Shown here piece after piece: positions 751-62,936 of a DNA stretch of 64,000 nt. Position 1 is the stretch's first letter. The number at the start of each line of letters is the position of its first letter. Below the pieces are notes generated by a model that made no database searches, was not told where the DNA came from, and worked only from the letters and a program-made list of their open reading frames with translations. The DNA is from Sinohyriopsis cumingii (Eukaryota > Mollusca > Bivalvia > Unionida > Unionidae). A program made the position numbers and the translations under genes. The stretch is taken from positions 16,109,630-16,173,629 of the forward strand of contig CM068828.1 in the NCBI GenBank assembly GCA_028554795.2, written 5' to 3'.

Positions 751-5449
<4,699 letters not shown>

Positions 5450-8319: not shown

Positions 8320-8538
8320 AACATCTGCCTCGCTTGGCGCTCAGCATTAAGAGGTTTGTGTTAGGACTGGTCGGCCTCTTGTCAGGATAATGTGACTGAG
8401 TGGAACATCATGCCTCATTTTTGCGGCATGATGCCCCAGTGCTAGACATCGCTATAAAGTGTCACACTGCAGACATCGTAGCGATATGACATAATTTTTT
8501 TAAAGCTACTTAAAAAATCCAACACACACACACACACT
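8320..8538 (+). mobile_element. SINE family 2, 5'-truncated copy
   Basis: It begins in the body (CTGCCTCGCTTGGCGCTCAG) and runs to a (CA)n tail. The tRNA-like head is missing, as expected of incomplete reverse transcription. Confidence 0.85.
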
Positions 8539-8548
8539 ATGTAACTTA

Positions 8549-8815
8549 TGGGTCTATGAAAGTATGATTAACAGCATACCCTGAAATAAACACTAAATAG
8601 AATGTGGTAATATCACGTGTACATGACTTAGCAATAAAAATATCTACAAATATAATACCATTAAAGAATATATCCATTGGAAAAGAAAATTGATTATTGA
8701 ACTATACACAGAAGATAATGTAATCCGAGGAGAATATGTTATCGTTTGATCTACCTAATGGGACTCTTCACAAAAAGCTTAATCATTATTCGCAAGTAAA
8801 TATACGTAACATGCC
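8549..8815. repeat. Duplicated block, left flank of 36-bp array (copy A)
   Basis: It matches 16555-16805 closely along its length: ACAGCATACCCTGAAATAAA, TATATCCATTGGAAAA, TTATCGTTTGATCTACC, ACTCTTCACAAAAAGCTT and CATTATTCGCAAGTAAA appear in the same order. Both copies lead directly into the 36-bp minisatellite. Confidence 0.88.
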
Positions 8816-10335
8816 CTCGCTCACTGCCACGATAAACATACATAACATGCCCTAGTTTACTGCCAGGATAAACACCATAGCATGCCATCGCTCACTGCCC
8901 CGGTCAAAATCATAACATGCCCAAGTTCAATGTTACGTTAAACATACATAACATGGCCTCGCTAACTGCCACGGTAAGCATGCATAACATGCTCTCGCTC
9001 ACTGCCACGATAAACATACATAGCATGCCTTCGTTCACTGCCACGGTAAACATACATGACATGCCCTCGCTCACTGCCACGGTAAACATACACAACATGG
9101 CCTCGCTCATGGCCACGATAAACATACACAACATGGCCTCGCTCATTGCCACGATAAACATACATAACATGCCCTCGCTCAATGCCATGATAAACATACA
9201 TAACATGCCCTCGCTCACAGCCATGATAAACATACACAACATGCCCTCGCTCACTGCCACGGTAAACATACATAACTTGCCCTCGCTCGCTGCCACGGTG
9301 AACATACATAACATGGCCTCGCTCACTACCACTGTAAACATGTATAACATACCCTCGCTCACTGCCACTGTAAACATACATAACATGCCGTCGGTCACTG
9401 CCACAGTAAATATGCATAACATGCCCTCGCTCACTGCCACTGTAAACATACATAACATGCCCTCGCTCACTGCCATGATAAGCATACATAACATGCCCTC
9501 GCCCACTGCCACAGTAAACATGCATAACATGCCCTCGCTCACTGCCATGATAAACATACATAACATGCCCTCGCTCACAGCCATGATAAACATACATAAC
9601 ATGCCCTCACTCACTGCCACGGTAAACATACATAACATGCCCTCGCTCAATGCCACGGTAAACATACACAACATGGCCTCGCTCATTGCCACGATAAACA
9701 TACATAACATGCCCTCGCTCAATGCCATGATAAACATACACAACATGCCCTCGCTCACTGCCACGGTAAGCATACATAACTTGCCCTCGCTCGCTGCCAC
9801 GGTGAACATACATAACATGGCCTCGTTCACTACCACTGTAAACATGCATAACATACCCTCGCTCACTGCCACTGTAAACATACATAACATGCCGTCGGTC
9901 ACTGCCACAGTAAATATGCATAACATGCCCTCGCTCACTGCCACTGTAAACATACATAACATGCCCTCGCTTACTGCCATGATAAGCATACATAACATGC
10001 CCTCGCCCACTGCCACAGTAAACATGCATAACATGCCCTCGCTCACTGCCACTGTAAACATACATAACATGTCGTCGCTCATCGCCACAGTAAACATACA
10101 TAACATGCCCTCGCTCACCGCCACTGTAAACATACATAATATGCCCTCGCTCACTGCTACGGTAAGCATACATAACATGCTCTCGCTCACCGCCACGGTA
10201 AACATACATGCCCTCGCTCACTACCACTGTAAACATGTATAACACATGCTCTCGCTCACTGCCACGGTAAACATACATAACATGCTCTCGCTCGCTGCCA
10301 CGGTAAACATACATAACATGCCATCCATCACTAGC
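8800..10335. repeat. 36-bp minisatellite with 504-bp higher-order repeat
   Basis: About 42 units of a 36-bp repeat (AACATACATAACATGCCCTC, then GCTCACTGCCACGGTA). The rare variants around 9277 recur at 9781, an offset of exactly 504 bp or 14 units, so a 14-unit block was itself duplicated. The array is open across hundreds of codons on both strands (441 residues +, 431 residues -), giving 12-residue peptide repeats. Openness on opposite strands with no other coding sign points to a repeat by-product. Confidence 0.96.
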
Positions 10336-10349
10336 ACGGTCTTGCTTCA

Positions 10350-13020: not shown

Positions 13021-13299
13021 CTAGGTCGTGGGTTCGATCCCCGGCCGAGTCATACGAAAGACTTACAAAAGTGGTACTAACAGCTGCCTCGCTTGGCGCT
13101 AAGCAATAAGAGGTTAGTGTTAGGACTGGTCGGCCTGGTGTCAGGATAATGTGACTGGGTGGAACATCATGCTACATGTCTGGGGCATGATGCCCCAGTG
13201 CTAGACATCACTATAAACTGCCACATTACAGACATCGTAGCGATATGACTGAAATATTGTTAAAGCTACGTTAAAAATGCAAATCACACACACACACAT
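13021..13299 (+). mobile_element. SINE family 2, nearly full copy
   Basis: It starts inside the tRNA-like head at box B (GGGTTCGATCCCC), then carries the full body and a (CA)n tail ending at about 13299. Confidence 0.88.
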
Positions 13300-25525: not shown

Positions 25526-27420
25526 GATGATAGTGGCTTGCAGTATACATATTGTAATGACATTAGCATGGACGATAGTGACTTACAGCATACATGTTGT
25601 AATGACGTTAACATGGAAGATAGTGACTTACAGTATACTCGTTGTAATGACATTAGCATGGAAGATAGTGACTTACAGTATACTCGTTGTAATGACATTA
25701 GCATGGAAGATGACTTACAATATACATGTTGTAATGACATTAGCATGGAAAATAGTGACTTACAGTATACTCGTTGTAATGACATTAGCATGGAAAATAG
25801 TGACTTACAGTATACTCGTTGTAATGACATTAGCATGGAAGATAGTGACTTCTAGTATACTCGTTGTAATGACATTAGCATAGAATATAGTGACTTCTAG
25901 TATACTCGTTGTAATGACATTAGCATGGAAGATAGTGACTTACAGTATACTCGTTGTAATGACATTAGCATGGAAGATGACTTACAATATACATGTTGTA
26001 ATGACATTAGCATGGAAGATATTGACTTCTAGTATACTCGTTGTAATGACATTAGCATAGAATATAGTGACTTCTAGTATACTCGTTGTAATGACGTTAA
26101 CATGGAAGATAGTGACTTACAGTATACATGTTGTAATGACGTTAACAGGGAAGATAGTGACTTACAGTCTATTCGTTGTAATGACATTAGCATGGAAGAT
26201 AGTGACTTACAATATACATGTTGTAATGACGTTAACATGGAAGATAGTGACTTACAGTATACTCGTTATAATGACATTAGCATGGAAGATAGTGACTTAC
26301 AGTATACTTGTTGTAATGACATTAGCATGGAAGATGACTTACAATATACATGTTGTAATGACATTAGCATGGAAAATAGTGACTTACAGTATACTCGTTG
26401 TAATGACATTAGCACGGAAAATAGTGACTTACAGTATACTCGTTGTAATGACATTAGCATGGAAGATAGTAACTTACAATATACTCGTTGTAATGACATT
26501 AGCATGGAAGATAGTGACTTCTAGTATACTCGTTGTAATGACATTAGCATAGAATATAGTGACTTCTAGTATACTCGTTGTAATGACGTTAACATGGAAG
26601 ATAGTGACTTACAGTATACTCGTTGTAATGACATTAGCATGGAAGATAGTGGCTTACAGTATACTCGTTGTAATGACATTAGCATGGAAGATAGTGACTT
26701 ACAGTATACATCTTGTAATGACGTTAACATGGAAGATAGTGACTTACAGTATACTCGTTGTAATGACATTAGCATGGAAGATAGTGATTTACAGTATACA
26801 TGTTGTAATGACATTAACATGAAATATAGTGACTTACAGTATTCTCTTTGTAATGACATTAGCATAGAAGATAGTGACTTACAGTATACTCGTTGTAATG
26901 ACATTAGCATGGAAAATAGTGACTTACAGTATACTCGTTGTAATGATATTAGCATAGAACATAGTGACTTACAGTATACTCGTTGTAATGACATTAGCAT
27001 GGAAGATAGTGACTTACAGTATACTCATTGTAATGAAATTAGCATGGAAGATAGTGACTTACAGTATACTCGTTGTAATGACATTAGCATAGAAGATAGT
27101 GACTTCTAGTATACTCGTTGTAATGACATTAACATGGAAGATAGTGACTTACAGTATACTCGTTGTAATGACATTAGCATAGAATATAGTGACTTCTAGT
27201 ATACTCGTTGTAATGACATTAACATGGAAGATAGTGACTTACAGTATACTCGTTGTAATGACATTAGCATGGAAGATAGTGACTTAGAGTATACTCGCTG
27301 TCATGACATTAGCATAGAAGATAGTGACGTCTAGTATACTCGTTGTAATGACATTAGCATAGAATATAGTGACTTACAGTATACTCTGTGTAATGTCATT
27401 AGCATAGAAGATTAGTGATT
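25526..27420. repeat. 45-bp minisatellite, first array
   Basis: About 42 units (GAAGATAGTGACTTACAGTA, then TACTCGTTGTAATGACATTAGCATG). Variants follow each other in repeated series, for example units ending a reading frame with TTCTAG recur as a group at about 25850, 26030 and 26520, showing block duplication. Reading frames are open on both strands, for example the 15-residue repeat DSDLQYTRCNDISME on the + strand. In-frame TAGs in recurring units argue against coding. Confidence 0.95.
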
Positions 27421-27450
27421 TACTGTGTACTGATTATAATGACATTAAGA

Positions 27451-28185
27451 ATGAAGATAGTGAATTGCGGTGAACTGGTTGTAATGCAATGCAAATAATA
27501 ATGAAGATAGTGACTTGCGGTGTACTGGTTGCAATACAATGCAAGTAATAATGAAGATAGTGACTTGCGGTGTACTGGTTGTAATGCAATGCAAGTAATA
27601 ATGAAGATAGTGACTTGCGGTGTACTGGTTGCAATGCAATGCAAGTAATAATGAAGATAGTGACTTGCGGTGTACTGGTTGCAATGCAATGCAAGTAATA
27701 ATGAATATAGTGACTTGCGGTGTACTGGTTGCAATGCAATGCAAGTAATAATGAATATAGTGACTTGCGGTGTACTGGTTGCAATGCAATGCAAGTAATA
27801 ATGAAGATAGTAATTTGCGGTGTACTGGTTGCAATGCAATGCAAGTAATAATGAAGATAGTGACTTGCGGTGTACTGGTTGCAATGCAGTGCAAGTAATA
27901 ATGAAGATAGTGACTTGCGGTGTACTGGTTGCAATGCAATGCAAGTAATAATGAAGATAGTGACTTGCGGTGTACTGGTTGCAATGCAATGCAAGCAATA
28001 ATGAATATAGTGACTTGCGGTGTACTGGTTGTAATGCAATGCAAGTAATAATGAAGATAGTAATTTGCGGTGTACTAGTTGTAATACAACGCAAATAATA
28101 ATGAAGATAGTAATTTGCGGTGTACTGGTTGCAATGCAATGCAAGTAATAATGAAGATAGTGACTTGCGGTGTACTGGTTGCAAG
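27451..28185. repeat. 50-bp minisatellite related to the 45-bp unit
   Basis: About 15 units of GAAGATAGTGACTTGCGGTG, then TACTGGTTGCAATGCAATGCAAGTAATAAT. The first 37 bp or so align to the 45-bp unit next door, and the unit has grown by 5 bp in its last part. All three - strand frames are open (up to 261 residues), because a 50-bp unit cycles through the frames. Confidence 0.95.
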
Positions 28186-34109: not shown

Positions 34110-35530
34110 TTTACCATTTAACGATATGAAAGAAAACTGAATGAGGTATGACCAGGATTTGGACGGTATGAATGATAACTGAATGAGGTATGATCAGGAT
34201 CTGGACGGTATGAATGATAACTGAATGCGCCATGATCAGGAGTTGGACGGTATGAATGATCACTAAATGAGCCATGATCAGGATTTGGACGGTATGAATG
34301 ATAACTGAATGCGCCATGATCAGGAGCTGGACGGTATGAATGATACTTAAATGAGCCATGATCAGGATTTGGACGGTATGAATGATAACTGAAGTAGTTA
34401 TGATCAGGATTTGGACGGTATGAATGATAACTGAATGAGGCATGATCAGGAGTTGGACGGTATAAATGATAACTGAATGAGGTATGATCAGGATTTGGAC
34501 GGTATGAATGATAACTGAATGAGGTATGATCAGGATCTGGACGGTATGAATGATAACTGAATGCGCCATGATCAGGAGTTGGACGGTATGAATGATCACT
34601 AAATGAGCCATGATCAGGAGTTGGACGGTATGAATGATAACTAAATGAGCCATGATCAGGATTTGGACGGTATGAATGATAACTGAAGTAGTTATGATCA
34701 GGATTTGGACGGTATGAATGATAACTGAATGAGGCATGATCAGGAGTTGGACGGTATGAATGATAACTGAATGAGATATGATCAGAATTTGGACGGTATG
34801 AATGATAACTTAATGAGGCATGATCAGGATTTGGACGGTATGAATGATAACTGAATGAGCCATGATCATGACTTGGACGATATGAATGATAACTGAAGTA
34901 GTTATGATCAGGATTTGGACGGTATGAATGATAACTGAATGAGGCATGATCAGGAGTTGGACGGTATGAATGATAACTAAATGAGCCATGATAAGGATAT
35001 GGACGGTATGAATGATAACTGAATGCGCCATGATCAGGAGTTGGACGGTATGAATGATAACTGATCAGGATCTGGACGGTATGAATGAAAACTGAATGAG
35101 GTATGATCAGGATTTAGACGGTATGAATGATAACTGAATGAGGCATGATCAGGATTTGGACGGTATGAATGATAACTGAATGAGGCATGATCAGGATTTG
35201 AACGGTATGAATGATAACTGAATGAGGCATGATCAGGATTTGGACGGTATGAATGATAACTGACTGAGACATGATCAGGATTTGGACGGTATGAATGATA
35301 ACTTAATGAGGCATGATCAGGATTTGGACGGTATGAATGATAACTGAATGAGCCATGATCAGGATTTGGACGGTATGAATGATAACTAAATGAGGCATGA
35401 TCAGGATTTGGACGGTATGAATGATAACTGAATCAGGCATTATCATGATTTGGACGGTATGAATTAAAACTGAATGAGGCATGATCAGGATTTGGACGGT
35501 ATGAATGATAACTGAATGAGGTATGATGAC
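34110..35530. repeat. 42-bp minisatellite
   Basis: About 33 units of GGACGGTATGAATGATAACT, then GAATGAGGCATGATCAGGATTT. Variant units (GCGCCATGATCAGGAGTTGG and GAAGTAGTTATGATCAGG) recur in blocks. The 208-residue - strand ORF (14-residue repeat) is a by-product of the 42-bp period. Confidence 0.95.
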
Positions 35531-36715: not shown

Positions 36716-36813
36716 CAGAAGGAATTTTTACATGATTTAACTTAGGGAATTCAAACAGAATAATTAAGGTTTCGATTTGTTTCAGCTGATTCTGACATTA
36801 AACATGCATATTA

Positions 36814-36918
36814 CACTGGTCAACAGTGAAATCATTACTGACTTGAAAAGGCCCTAATCTGTAGTATTTTGGTGTGCCGAACACGAATATAACCGTGAAA
36901 AATTTGTATTGGCTCTCG
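36814..36918 (+). repeat. Left terminal inverted repeat
   Basis: Imperfect partner of 39099-39213, best conserved in the outer 12 bp and in an inner 35-40 bp block around GAACACGAATAT. Confidence 0.9.
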
Positions 36919-37073
36919 TTTTGAAGATATTCATATACCTCATTTTCTATGTTTCACTGTGTAAATTTCTCCAGTAGGACTGCAGCAACATCCGGAATAA
37001 TGATGTAACATTGCATAATACCATCATGCTCACATCATCCACAGTTGATTGCATCATTTTCTGATGCAATGCA

Positions 37074-37190
37074 ATACTAATGCCATGCGGCTGCTGAAGT
37101 AAGTTGACGTCAGCAGTGTACTATACATGTGTAGGCCTATTATACTAATGCCAGGCGGCTGCTGAAGCTGACGTAAGCAGTGTACTATAT
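37074..37190 (+). promoter_or_regulatory. Duplicated promoter-proximal motif of the transposon
   Basis: Two copies of ACTAATGCCATGCGGCTGCT (second copy GCCAGG) followed by a GACGT(C/A)AGCAGTGTACTATA segment, offset about 70 bp. Both hold a GACGT core. The second copy runs directly into the TATA box. It may bind the element's own protein or a host factor; this is inference. Confidence 0.6.
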
Positions 37191-37193
37191 AAA
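37186..37193 (+). promoter_or_regulatory. TATA box of the transposon gene
   Basis: TATATAAA, 115 bp upstream of the ATG at 37308, placed correctly for a short 5' leader. Confidence 0.6.
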
Positions 37194-37307
37194 GCCCAAT
37201 CAGATAGGTTCAGCATTTAAAATATTTTAGACGTTGTGCGAGACAGTTCAAGCTACTGTTACATAAAACTTATTATTTTATCCATTTACGTACAATAAAG
37301 AACAGTA

Positions 37308-38996
37308 ATGCCTCGAAAGTGTGTTAATACCGCGGACAATTTTTGCTATATTTGTGGGGAAGTGACATTTGCCAACCAGAAGAAAAGTATCAATTCTCAA
37401 GTGAAGAAGGCATATCATCTTTACTGCGGATGCAAGGTTGGTGACCAAGACAAGCCTTGGGCTCCGCATATATGCTGTGCTACATGTACAACACAGCTTT
37501 CACAGTGGTTGAATTGCAAAAGGTCATCAATGCCGTTTGCAGTCCCAATGGTGTGGAGAGAGCCAAGCAACCACCTAAATGACTGTTACTTCTGCTTGGT
37601 TCCTCCTCTTTCCGGCGGAATAACGAAGCGAAAGAAGTCGAGAATAGTCTACCCAAACATTCCGTCTGCATTGAGACCAGTTCCACATGGTGAGGGACTT
37701 CCTATTCCAGAACCTCCAGCAGAATATTCTCTTGATTCATCTGACGAAGACAAAGGTGAGTCGACCTGTTCTTCTCTTGGTCCATCAGCATGCAGTGATC
37801 CAGATTTTCACTGTGGTGCATCATCAACCCCACACAGAATAACACAGGAAGAACTAAATGACCTGATTCGTGATTTGGACTTATCAAAGAACAAGGCAGA
37901 ATTGCTAGGATCAAGACTCCAACAATGGAATCTTCTAGAAGAAGATGTCACAATTACTGCATATCGAAAGCGCCACCAGCAATTGGAGCCTTTCTTCAGA
38001 AAGGAAAGTAATCTGATATTCTGTTCCGATATTGAGGGCCTCATGAATGCTTTAAAAATCACTCATGACCCACAAGAATGGAGACTATTTGTGGACTCTT
38101 CGAAACTGAGTCTCAAGGCTGTGCTTTTGCACAATGGAAACATTCTTCCATCTATTCCAGTAGCGTATGCTGTCCACATGAAAGAGACATACGATAACTT
38201 AAGGCAGCTACTGAATTCCATTGAGTATAACAAGTACAGCTGGCACCTCTGTGGTGATTTGAAGGTAGTTGCCCTTTTAATGGGACTGCAGCAAGGATAT
38301 ACAAAATACATGTGTTTCTTATGCGAGTGGGATAGCCGAGCAAGGGAAATGCACTACATGAGGAAGGAATGGACTCACAGGCAGAATGTAGCCATTGGAG
38401 AGAAGAATATCCAACACCCAGCTCTGGTTGAGGCTCAGAAAATCTTGCTACCACCCCTTCACATCAAACTAGGTTTGATGAAGAACTTCGTGAAAGCCAT
38501 TGACCGGACTTTGCCAGCATTCCGATACCTGCATGAAAAATTCCCTCGACTCAGCGAAGCAAAGATTAAAGAGGGAGTTTTTGTGGGTCCTCAGATTCGA
38601 GAGCTTTTCAAAGATGACCGGTTCAACAACTTGCTGGAAGGTGACGCGAAACAAGCATGGAATGCTTTTCGCCTAGTTTCTACAAACTTCCTCGGAAATG
38701 TTAGGGCAGAAAACTATAAGGAACTAGTAGAAGACATGTTGATGAAGTATAAGAAACTTGGCTGCAATATGTCTCTAAAGATTCACTTCCTTCATTCCCA
38801 TTTGGATTTCTTTCCTAGCAACTGTGGTATTGTTAGTGATGAACACGGCGAACGTTTTCATCAAGATATCGCAACAATGGAACAAAGATACCAGGGAAAA
38901 TGGTCCACTACAATGCTGGCTGACTACTGCTGGACACTCCTCAGAGATGCTCCCGAACAGCTGTACAAGAGACAGGCGAAGAAATCTAAGATGTAG
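37308..38996 (+). CDS. Intact 562-residue transposon protein, possible DDE-type transposase
   Basis: A single open frame from ATG to TAG with no break. Residues 10-100 are Cys-rich: CYIC at 13-16, C40/C42, HICCATC at 54-60 and DCYFC at 92-96, suggesting zinc-binding motifs for DNA recognition. Residues 135-170 are acidic and Ser-rich. The C-terminal half has FVDSS (D263), CGDLK (D317), CFLC (C336/C339), LHIKLG (about 385) and DEHGERFH (511-518). The spaced acids with a Cys/His motif between the second and third fit an RNase H-like DDE transposase core, but I assign this by pattern only. I recognise the sequence as a member of a widespread uncharacterised animal protein family. Its place between inverted ends and a target duplication shows it belongs to a transposon. 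It appears less AT-rich than its surroundings, which fits a recent arrival. Alternative: a captured host gene. Confidence 0.85.
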   Translation: MPRKCVNTADNFCYICGEVTFANQKKSINSQVKKAYHLYCGCKVGDQDKPWAPHICCATCTTQLSQWLNCKRSSMPFAVPMVWREPSNHLNDCYFCLVPPLSGGITKRKKSRIVYPNIPSALRPVPHGEGLPIPEPPAEYSLDSSDEDKGESTCSSLGPSACSDPDFHCGASSTPHRITQEELNDLIRDLDLSKNKAELLGSRLQQWNLLEEDVTITAYRKRHQQLEPFFRKESNLIFCSDIEGLMNALKITHDPQEWRLFVDSSKLSLKAVLLHNGNILPSIPVAYAVHMKETYDNLRQLLNSIEYNKYSWHLCGDLKVVALLMGLQQGYTKYMCFLCEWDSRAREMHYMRKEWTHRQNVAIGEKNIQHPALVEAQKILLPPLHIKLGLMKNFVKAIDRTLPAFRYLHEKFPRLSEAKIKEGVFVGPQIRELFKDDRFNNLLEGDAKQAWNAFRLVSTNFLGNVRAENYKELVEDMLMKYKKLGCNMSLKIHFLHSHLDFFPSNCGIVSDEHGERFHQDIATMEQRYQGKWSTTMLADYCWTLLRDAPEQLYKRQAKKSKM

Positions 38997-39098
38997 TCAA
39001 TGACTTGATTTTTTATAGGTAGGCTATTACAGTTGACCTTTTACTATTGGAATGCATTTCGTTATGTAAACATTAATTTCTTGCAGATTACAAAAAAA

Positions 39099-39213
39099 CT
39101 AGAGCCAATTTTGCAATTTGACTGTCATATTCGTGTTCAGCACATAAAAATTGATAAGAATTGACTAATTTTATTTCAGTAACATGACTTTTGTAAAAAT
39201 TTGTTGTCCAGTG
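39099..39213 (-). repeat. Right terminal inverted repeat
   Basis: Reverse complement begins CACTGGACAACA and contains GTGCTGAACACGAATATGAC, against GTGCCGAACACGAATATAAC on the left. Confidence 0.9.
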
Positions 39214-39248
39214 TTATTATCTAGGACAGAACAATAAAAATATTGAAA

Positions 39249-39345
39249 GGGCCCCGGCTAGCCGAGTAGTCCGAGGCGGTTGCTTTTACCGATCGCTGAA
39301 ATCTTAATCTAGGCCACCGGCTCTCCTTCCTTGGAGTGAAATGCG
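39249..39345 (+). mobile_element. SINE head fragment
   Basis: GGCCCCGGCTAGCCGAGTAG resembles the tRNA-like head of family 1, followed by diverged sequence with a GGCCACCGGCTC word. No body is recognisable. Confidence 0.45.
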
Positions 39346-42660: not shown

Positions 42661-42679
42661 GCCTTTCTATTCAGTTTGC

Positions 42680-43705
42680 TTGACACGTGCATCAAGTTTG
42701 GTCGACATACTTAGAATGGCTTGACATGTGCATCAAGTTTGGTCGACATACTTAGAATGGCTTGACACGTGCATCAAATTTGGTTAACACACTTATAATG
42801 GCTTGACAGTGCATCAAGTTTGGTCGACATACCTAGAATGGCTTGACATGTGCATCAGGTTTGGTCGACATACTTAGAATGGCTTGACATGTGCATCAAG
42901 TTTGGTCGACATACTTAGAATGGCTTGACACGTGCATCAAATTTGGTTAACACACTTATAATGGCTTGACAGTGCATCAAGTTTGGTCGACATACCTAGA
43001 ATGGCTTGACATGTGCATCAGGTTTGGTCGACATACTTAGAATGGCTTGACATGTGCATCTAGTTTGGTCGACAAACCTATAATGGCATGACAGTGCATC
43101 AAGTTTGGTCGACATACTTAGAATGGCTTGACATGTGCATCAAGTTTGGTCGACGTACTTAGAATGGCTTGACAGTGCATCAGGTTTGATCGACATACTT
43201 AGAATGGCTTGATATGTGCATCAAGTTTGGTCGACATACCTATAATGGCATGACAGTGCATCAAGTTTCGTCGACATACTTATAATGGCTTGACATGTGC
43301 ATCAAGTTTGGTCGACGTACTTAGAATGGCTTGACAGTGCATCAAGTTTGATCGACATACTTAGAATGGCTTGACATGTGCATCAAGTTTGGTCGACATA
43401 CCTATAATGGTATGACAGTACATCAAGTTTGGTCGACATACCTAGAATGGCTTGACATGTGCATCACGTTTGGTCGACATACTTAGAATGGCTTGACATG
43501 TGCATCAAGTTGTGTCGACGTACTTATAATGGCTTGACAGTACCTCAAGTTTGGTCGACATACCTAGAATGGCTTGACATGTGCATCAAGTCTGGTCGAC
43601 ATACTTATAATGGCTTGACAGTGCATCAAGTTTGGTTGACATACCTAGAATGGTTTGACATGTGCATCAAGTTTGGTTGACATACCTAGAATGGCATGAC
43701 AGAGA
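42680..43705. repeat. 39/41-bp minisatellite with higher-order structure
   Basis: About 25 units of GGCTTGACATGTGCATCAAG, then TTTGGTCGACATACTTAGAAT. Some units lack 2 bp (GACAGTGCATC for GACATGTGCATC). A four-unit block with the variant AAATTTGGTTAACACAC at 42775 recurs 163 bp later. It is bounded on the right by GACAGACAGACAGA. Confidence 0.95.
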
Positions 43706-49433: not shown

Positions 49434-49748
49434 AGGGCACCGCGTCCGACTCGGATACGGGAGGTCGCGGGTAAGAACCCCGGCTGAGTCATACCAAAGA
49501 CTTACAAAAATGGTACTAACAGCTGCCTCGCTAGGCGCTCAGCATTTAAAGGTTAGTGTTAGGACTGGTCGGCCTGGTGTCAGGATAATGTGACTGGGTG
49601 GGACATCATTCTACATGTCTGCGGCATGATGCCCCAGTGCTAGACATCACTATAAACTGTCACACTGCAGACATCGTAGCGATATGACTGAAAAAATGTT
49701 AAAACTACGTTAAAAATCTAAATCACACACACACACACACACACACTT
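49434..49748 (+). mobile_element. SINE family 2, nearly complete copy
   Basis: Head CGCGTCCGACTCGGATACGG, full body with TCAGGATAATGTGACTGGGT, end TAAAACTACGTTAAAAATCT and a (CA)n tail at 49724-49746. With the 2301-2625 copy it defines the family consensus in this window. Confidence 0.92.
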
Positions 49749-49899: not shown

Positions 49900-50935
49900 G
49901 ATTTATAGTATATTAGCCATAGTGATTGTAGCACAGAAGACAGTGATGTACAGTATATAAGTTGTAAGGACAGTAGAAGCGTAGACAGTGATTTACAGCA
50001 TATTGGTTGTAAGGACAGTAGAAAGGCAGACAGTGATGTACAGTAGATCAGTTGGAATGACAGTATCAAAACAAACAGTGATGTACAGTATATCGGCTGT
50101 AAGGACAGCAGCGAGACAGACGGTGCTTTACAATATTATAGTTGTAAGGACAGTAGCAAGACAGACAGTGATGTACAGTATATTGGCCTTAGTGACTGTA
50201 GCAGAGTATAAAGTGATGTACAATTTATTGATGGTAAAGACAGCAGCAAGACAGACAATGATGTACAGTATATTGGTTGTAAGGACAGTAGCATGAAAGA
50301 CAGTGATGTACAGTATTATATTGGTTGTAACGACAGTATCATGACAGTGAGTTACAGTACATTAGTTGTTAGGACTAGCAAGACAGACAGTGATGTACAG
50401 TATATTGGTTGTAAGAATAGTAGCAAGACAGACAGTAATGTACAGTATGTTGGTTGTAAAGACAGTAACAAGACTGACAGTGATGTACAGTATATTGTTT
50501 GTAAGGACAGTAGCAAGACTGACAGTGATGTACAGTGTATTGGTTGTAAGGACAGTAGCAAGACAGACATTAATGTACAGTATGTTGGTTTGTAAGGACA
50601 GTAGCAAGACATAGTGATGTACAGTATATTGGTTGTAAGGACAGTATCAAAACAGACAGTGATGTGGAGCATATTGGCTGTAAGGACAGTAGCAAGATAG
50701 ACAGTGATGTACAGTATATTGGTTGTAAGGGCAGTAGCAAGACAGACAGTAATGGACAGTAGGTTGGTTGTAAGGACAGTAGCAAGACAGTGATGTACAG
50801 TATATTGGCTGTAAGTAGCAAGACAGAGAGTGATGTACAGTATATTGGTTGTAAGGACAGAAGCAAGATAGACAGTAATGTACAGTATATTGGTTGTAAG
50901 GATATGAGCAAGACAGACAGTGATTTACAGTACAG
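49900..50935. repeat. 45-bp minisatellite, second array
   Basis: About 23 units of GACAGTGATGTACAGTATAT, then TGGTTGTAAGGACAGTAGCAAGACA. The + strand peptide DSDVQYIGCKDSSKT lines up with DSDLQYTRCNDISME from the array at 25.5-27.4 kb, with the same period and orientation, so the two arrays share an ancestral unit although they are 22 kb apart. Small deletions break the frame (for example at 50345 and 50610), so it is not coding. Confidence 0.93.
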
Positions 50936-55106: not shown

Positions 55107-60873
<5,767 letters not shown>

Positions 60874-62400: not shown

Positions 62401-62411
62401 CCTTTTGTACC

Positions 62412-62936
62412 CACTATAATGATGCCCACTATACTGATGCCCACTATACTGATACCCACTATGTTGATGCCCACTATACTGATACTCACTATACTGATGC
62501 CCACTATATTGATAATCACTATACTGATGCCCACTATACTGATGCCCACTATACTGATACTCACTATACTGATGCCCACTATATTGATAATCACTATACT
62601 GATGCCCACTATATTGATAATCACTATACTGATGCCCACTATACTGATACTCACTATACTGATGCCCACTATACTGATACTCACTATACTGATGCCCACT
62701 ATACTGATACCCACTATACTGATGCCCACTATAATGATACTCACTATACTGATGCCCACTATACTGATACTCACTATACTGATGCCCACTATATTGATAA
62801 TCACTATACTGATGCCCACTATACTGATACCCACTATACTGATGCCCACTATACTGATACTCACTATACTGATGCCCACTATATTGATAATCACTATACT
62901 GATGCCCACTATACTGATACTCACTATACTGATGCG
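62412..62936. repeat. 15-bp satellite (CACTATACTGATGCC)
   Basis: 35 units of 15 bp with the last three bases and TACTG/TATTG varying: GCC, ACC, ACT, AAT. Variants alternate, so the working period is often 30 bp, and longer blocks recur. It is open in several frames (HYTDA repeats in a 231-residue + ORF; GISIV repeats on the - strand), a by-product of the period. Confidence 0.96.

Follow-up and report, generated by a model that had tools for sequence, protein, structure and literature searches.

The Chapaev3 DNA transposons are distant relatives of RAG1, the enzyme of the immune system. Chapaev and Chapaev3 have been grouped with Transib and RAG1, with a zinc domain named Chapa common to them (PMC4411706). 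A survey of the Chapaev3 group, to which Merrow, Garfield and Conan belong, describes CAC/GTG ends for Chapaev elements and, for Chapaev3, a TWA duplication lying between an A and a T, together with DDE residues in the transposase and the motifs C(2)C, LH and H(4)H (PMC4079192). In silkworm copies the A and T around TWA are always present; full Merrow and Garfield elements measure 2.3-2.45 kb, the Garfield transposase has 556 aa, and most Chapaev3 genes consist of one exon. In table 1 of the same survey, copy numbers peak at 281 (a short lizard element) or >254 (Merrow), and miniature inverted-repeat transposable elements (MITEs) are reported from tuna, silkworm and lizard. Here we analyze a 64,000-nucleotide stretch of the genome of the bivalve Sinohyriopsis cumingii (assembly GCA_028554795.2, contig CM068828.1, positions 16,109,630 to 16,173,629; hereafter the window), in which positions 36814-39213 are very likely one copy of an autonomous-type Chapaev3 transposon. 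The group itself is already known. What we add is a further Chapaev3 element in an unusual state, a burst of full-length copies; among the publications listed by literature searches, none describes a Chapaev3 wave on this scale, a weak test of absence in print.

The copy in the window is 2,400 bp long, starts with CACTGGTC, ends with GTCCAGTG, and lies between two copies of TTA (36811-36813 and 39214-39216). Its left terminal inverted repeat (36814-36923, plus strand) begins CACTGGTCAACA and runs for ~110 bp, while the right one (39095-39213, minus strand) covers ~119 bp and ends CCAGTG. With gaps allowed, 86 of 101 aligned positions pair between the two ends for a global score of 76, whereas 500 pairs drawn at random within the window score no higher than 33. 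The pairing is not continuous: it consists of an outer 12 bp (11 of 12 paired) and an inner block of ~60 bp. A preliminary description of this stretch had proposed CACTG ends, inverted repeats of about 105-115 bp and a perfect 3-bp TTA duplication, and all three stand, with exact boundaries and with the interruption just noted.

These boundaries recur throughout the genome. In a protein search of the assembly (2.90 Gb in 1,138 contigs), 77 of 9,575 candidates were scored, a lower bound that we did not use for copy number, and 70 of the 77 scored loci were fetched and examined. Full-length copies were found at 68 of the 70; the other two lack the left end (L022) or the right end (L032). Among the first 30 loci, the CACTGGTC...GTCCAGTG termini are present in 29 of 29 full-length copies. 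A perfect 3-bp duplication flanks 67 of the 68 full-length copies: TTA in 25, TAA in 23, ATA in 6, TTT in 4, CAA and TAT in 2 each, and five others once each. The exception (L037) has ATAG before it and TTGG after it and may have arisen by recombination between two insertions.

At the five central positions of the target, the 67 duplicated sites have A in 58, T in 56, T or A in 64, A in 59 and T in 51. A further, weak preference extends out to five positions from the center (<=0.31 bits), and no position beyond exceeds 0.09 bits. The CAC...GTG ends and the 3-bp TWA duplication between A and T thus resemble those published for Chapaev3, though here as a preference: 48 of 67 duplications are TWA (TTA or TAA) and 19 deviate, and the flanking bases, a 5' A in 58/67 and a 3' T in 51/67, occur together in 45/68 and not in every copy. 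A hAT element was also considered and rejected; hAT transposons duplicate 8 bp, whereas 67 of 68 loci here have 3 bp.

To look for empty sites, we compared the joined flanks of the 68 full-length copies with the window and with the flanks of other copies. Matches spanning the junction were obtained for five copies, two of them weaker (L045 and L059). The flanks of L006 match four repeats in the window at 77-79% identity, each with a single TTA (49461-49702, 13023-13263, 2338-2578 and 8321-8490); the empty site of L010 is a flank of L003 (86% identity, one ATA), and that of L064 is a flank of L053 (73% identity, one TCA). These paralogous empty sites of L006, L010 and L064 show insertion that duplicates three bases.

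Because the DNA similarity search skips very common words (a 117-bp query gave 0 matches and the whole element 13, 7 of them outside the 77), we counted copies with exact patterns. The 41-bp left end occurs 4,806 times genome-wide (2,428 on the plus and 2,378 on the minus strand), the 44-bp right end also 4,806 times (2,417 and 2,389), and a 41-mer from the catalytic region 4,639 times (2,338 and 2,301). Allowing <=3 mismatches in the left end raises its count to 5,104 (2,568 and 2,536). The control, reversed for the left end, was 0 in all four counts. Thus the search for shared ends and 3-bp duplications that the preliminary description had proposed yields thousands of copies, where the lack of a second one would have spoken against a transposon. 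The ~4,800-5,100 copies also exceed the highest counts, 281 or >254, in table 1 of the survey cited above.

Could these numbers be inflated by over-assembly or segmental duplication? Long near-identical repeats are prone to the former, the assembly is in 1,138 contigs, and L024 and L027 have similar right flanks, the only such pair among the first 30 loci with 300-bp flanks. But 67 of the 68 full-length copies each have their own 3-bp duplication, the comparison of 200-bp flanks of 50 loci gave no pair above threshold on either side, and the two strands are nearly equally represented (2,428 vs 2,378). We consider an artefact of this kind highly unlikely.

The copies are also very similar to one another. 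Exact sequences make up 94.2% of the left ends with <=3 mismatches, and so divergence is ~0.147% per site (0.131-0.164% by resampling). The non-coding parts of the selected set of 70 copies give 0.13%, in agreement with this, as do the 0.19% in six ORFs (open reading frames) chosen without regard to coding state. No older tail is seen in the left-end divergence, a count to which copies with >3 mismatches over 41 bp are invisible; the agreement of the three estimates leaves little room for older copies within 3 mismatches of 41 bp. The copy in the window had been called young, and a divergence of ~0.15% among copies bears this out. With mutation rates of 2.8e-9 to 1e-8, this would correspond to ~150,000 to 520,000 generations, a figure that we do not offer as a date.

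Copy length was measured on contig C1. For each of the 100 exact left ends that come first in genome order (0.6-49.8 Mb), we searched up to 12 kb of the same strand for an exact right end. A partner was found for 92, leaving 8 unpaired. The pairs measure 2,395-2,405 bp in 86 cases, including 73 of exactly 2,400 bp; the other six are 1,540, 2,295, 2,364, 2,392, 2,394 and 8,079 bp long. By extrapolation, full-length copies would number ~4,100-4,400 and occupy some 10 Mb of the genome. None of the 92 pairs is MITE-sized, the shortest being the one of 1,540 bp, although short derivatives with altered ends would escape this sample; in contrast, MITEs have been published for Chapaev3 in tuna, silkworm and lizard (PMC4079192). 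Three pairs of copies lie close together on the same contig (G000:C1), at 17407854 and 17410507, 39132643 and 39136179, and 25412503 and 25414162; such pairs, a few kb apart, could reflect local hopping.

From these counts, lengths and divergences, we infer that a single recent wave brought the element to ~5,000 sites, mostly at full length in our sample. A comparable event is the recent burst of Mariner-2_DF in the fire ant, likewise an autonomous DNA transposon with no reported evidence of purifying selection on its copies (PMC6307670). Mariner-2_DF belongs to another superfamily, and its 857 copies with a diversity of 0.005 compare with ~5,000 copies at 0.15% here.

The ORF of the element (37308-38996, plus strand) comprises 562 codons and a stop in a single exon and is unbroken in the window copy, as the preliminary description had it. 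Its length of 562 aa and that of the element, 2,400 bp, are close to the 556 aa of Garfield and the 2.3-2.45 kb of Merrow and Garfield; Merrow and Garfield have two exons, whereas the single exon found here is reported for most other Chapaev3 elements (PMC4079192). A protein database search scored 8,000 candidates and identified 2,001 of them as relatives (E <= 0.001). Among the 120 matches listed, the three with organism names come from a frog, a firefly and a moth and are uncharacterized or hypothetical proteins, and some of the others are also labelled hypothetical protein. For 106 of these 120 the longest contig, at 1.9-3.1 kb, is roughly as long as the element itself, in keeping with collapsed repeats.

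An alignment of 89 rows shows no variation at D263, D317, C336, C339, L384, H385, H493, H498, E512 and E515. We read these as the published motif positions: the candidate catalytic aspartates D263 (38094-38096) and D317 (38256-38258), each conserved in 89/89 rows, the C(2)C motif at C336 and C339 (38313-38324), the LH motif at L384 and H385 (38457-38462), the H(4)H motif at H493 and H498 (38784-38801) and, as the likely catalytic glutamate, either E512 or E515 (38841-38852), both of which are conserved in 89/89 rows; all of these codons lie on the plus strand. Further likenesses to Chapaev3 as published (PMC4079192) are this set of motifs with the DDE residues, copies without purifying selection (see below) and a patchy spread across animals.

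The predicted model of the protein has an RNase H core of the RAG1/Transib type spanning residues 175-560 (37830-38987, plus strand), the outcome of a structural comparison with DDE transposases that had been suggested for this ORF. Searches by sequence were silent on this point. The transposase matched no Pfam or NCBIfam family at E <= 1 and nothing in the PDB by phmmer at E <= 1, and a profile search of the PDB returned three irrelevant chains only (E 1.4-2), neither Transib nor RAG1. Among the 89 relatives, 4 match Pfam RT_RNaseH_2 (best E 0.0059) amid chance-level matches to other families; in P0037 and P0102 these matches fall near the D263 position, below the cut-off. Pfam and NCBIfam are blind to this protein, and for this reason its relatives stay labelled uncharacterized. 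The ORF had been taken for a transposon gene despite that label, and the thousands of near-identical copies, those examined having 3-bp duplications, joined with the RAG1/Transib-type core in the model, agree: it is very probably the transposase of the element.

Transib and RAG1 duplicate 5 bp. Our element resembles Transib (HzTransib) and RAG1 in the predicted fold of the catalytic core, but it duplicates 3 bp at 67 of 68 loci, is 11-15% identical to them in the best rows, and has no second gene. Given this core and the 3-bp rather than 5-bp duplication, we take it to work like a Transib without filing it as one. CACTA/EnSpm elements have CACTR ends and a 2-3-bp duplication, and the CACTG termini and 3-bp duplication would suit an animal EnSpm element. 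CACTA is, moreover, a member of the same CMC group (PMC4079192). However, published Chapaev3 elements are matched by the A-TWA-T target, by the single-exon gene of 562 aa and by the C(2)C/LH/H(4)H set, and no CACTA transposase family is among the 25 listed of the 29 Pfam families matched by any of the 89 relatives. We judge a CACTA/EnSpm proper to be improbable and retain Chapaev3.

The coding state of the copies bears on whether the host has any use for them. All 77 scored loci span residues 1-562 at 99-100% identity with no stops, a sample biased toward the best candidates. These open copies, and the 2,001 relatives of the protein, would suit a domesticated multicopy gene family that is useful to the host and whose flanks merely look like those of a transposon. 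The 77 were, however, selected by protein similarity. We therefore took six plus-strand full-length copies in genome order, without looking at their code. Three are open from ATG to stop (L071, L073 and L075) and three are broken: L072 has lost its start, L074 has a stop at 528 and L076 a stop at 243. Relative to the majority sequence these six ORFs carry 19 differences; 13 of them change the protein, as expected without selection, non-synonymous sites being 79%. A non-synonymous/synonymous ratio of 0.05 was discarded, since its loci had been chosen by protein similarity. With the 3-bp duplications and empty sites showing transposition as well, domestication has almost nothing left to recommend it. 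Instead, in this small sample (n=6), the picture fits transposon ORFs that decay neutrally, as would be expected if the transposase acts in trans and a copy can be moved even when its own gene is broken.

Two bases set the window copy apart from the majority sequence. One of them makes codon 40 (37425-37427, plus strand) encode Cys, where 87 of the 88 aligned relatives carry Phe, the other being gapped; among 70 copies, Cys40 is found in the window copy and L002, and a third copy has Ser. The Cys40 common to the window copy and L002 makes the window copy part of a sub-lineage. The copy had been described as apparently intact. This holds for its exact boundaries and its open ORF, and is qualified by the replacement of a nearly invariant Phe; the copy is of the autonomous type, but with Cys40 its own protein may or may not work.

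We propose the following route of transposition. The TATA promoter would drive expression of the transposase, whose zinc domain and core would bind and pair both inverted repeats. Excision would then fall to D263, D317 and either E512 or E515 acting with metal, probably via hairpin ends by analogy with Transib and RAG. The 3' ends would attack a target at positions staggered by 3 bp, and repair by the host would yield the TWA duplication. In a single recent wave, this cycle would have taken the element to ~5,000 sites; a copy without a working gene could still be moved, and the ORFs would decay neutrally.

Several features around the ORF may contribute to expression. A TATA box, TATATAAA, is at 37186-37193 (plus strand), with 114 bp separating its end from the ATG. 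Upstream of the start codon is a duplicated stretch of ~50 bp (37074-37189, plus strand), with copies at 37074-37125 and 37142-37189, the second extending into the TATA box. The first copy contains the palindrome TGACGTCA, read from the sequence, which we take to resemble a CRE site and which might matter for expression of the transposase. From the stop codon to its right end (38997-39213) the element contains no AATAAA or ATTAAA; the nearest AATAAA is at 39233, ~20 bp beyond the right end and outside the element. With no such signal after the stop codon, transcripts may end in flanking DNA.

The transposase also has a cysteine-rich N-terminal domain (residues 1-142, with C13 C16 C57 C60 and C93 C96; 37308-37733, plus strand) whose predicted fold resembles the ZAD. 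This is a dimerization domain that heads a large family of insect zinc-finger transcription factors. For a model of the N-terminal part, the 4 listed PDB entries are without exception ZADs (M1BP, Grauzone, Pita and Serendipity-delta), the likeness being one of a four-cysteine domain, and Pfam zf-AD matches 3 of the 89 relatives (best E 0.0017), amid chance-level matches. We suggest tentatively, and with the balance slightly against it, that the Chapaev3 zinc domain, probably the Chapa domain said to be common with RAG1, is a homologue of the ZAD, one common module. In that case the domain would dimerize transposase subunits on the paired ends. The ZAD of host factors may then descend from transposases of the RAG/Transib/Chapaev line, or the derivation may run the other way. 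Among the matches listed, no paper linking ZAD to Chapaev or to a transposase origin was found by title or abstract, a weak test of absence; one paper (PMC7397244) contains each of the two words once.

In a tree of the 89 relatives, the window protein groups with P0001-P0003 (87-90% identity, 4 rows, 100/100), and the frog protein falls into a group of 8 rows (100/97) with that of the firefly, apart from the moth. For these three named hosts, then, the history of the element disagrees with that of its hosts, and a horizontal arrival of the element is plausible from these groupings and from the single tight wave. Element histories at odds with host histories have been reported for other Chapaev3 families as well. 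Viral contigs gave 52 pattern matches, none confirmed as a relative, and predicted viral structures gave no relative at E <= 0.001; a viral carrier, as for Garfield, is therefore not supported here.

The window holds other repeats. The ~240-bp dispersed repeat at 2338-2578, 8321-8490, 13023-13263 and 49461-49702, in which the empty sites of L006 lie, is probably a tRNA-derived short interspersed element (SINE); the only Rfam match in the window at gathering level is a tRNA at 2549-2621 (minus strand, 31.7 bits), which overlaps the copy at 2338-2578. Directly to the right of the transposon, 39247-39340 has a tRNA-like head, GGGGCCCCGGCTAGCCGAGTAGTCCGAGGCGG..., that looks like the start of a SINE and has no Rfam match at gathering level. 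Minisatellite arrays occupy 8796-10340, 25529-28184, 34121-35527, 42678-43701, 49928-50932, 59300-60157 and 62408-62935, with units of 30-50 bp in up to 44 copies (32 rows in the window score >=200); several yield long spurious ORFs. Two other ORFs in the window have no Pfam family.

To our knowledge, no Chapaev element has been shown to work, and a literature search by title turned up no Chapaev transposition assay among the matches listed. If the ZAD homology is true, a domain of insect transcription factors and the RAG transposon family have a common module. The near-identical Chapaev3 copies are a natural tool set for learning how DNA is cut and joined by a RAG1-like transposase outside both RAG and Transib. 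The burst itself, with ~5,000 copies and a shortest length of 1,540 bp among 92 pairs, offers an opportunity to follow the invasion of a genome at a stage when short deletion derivatives have not yet become dominant.
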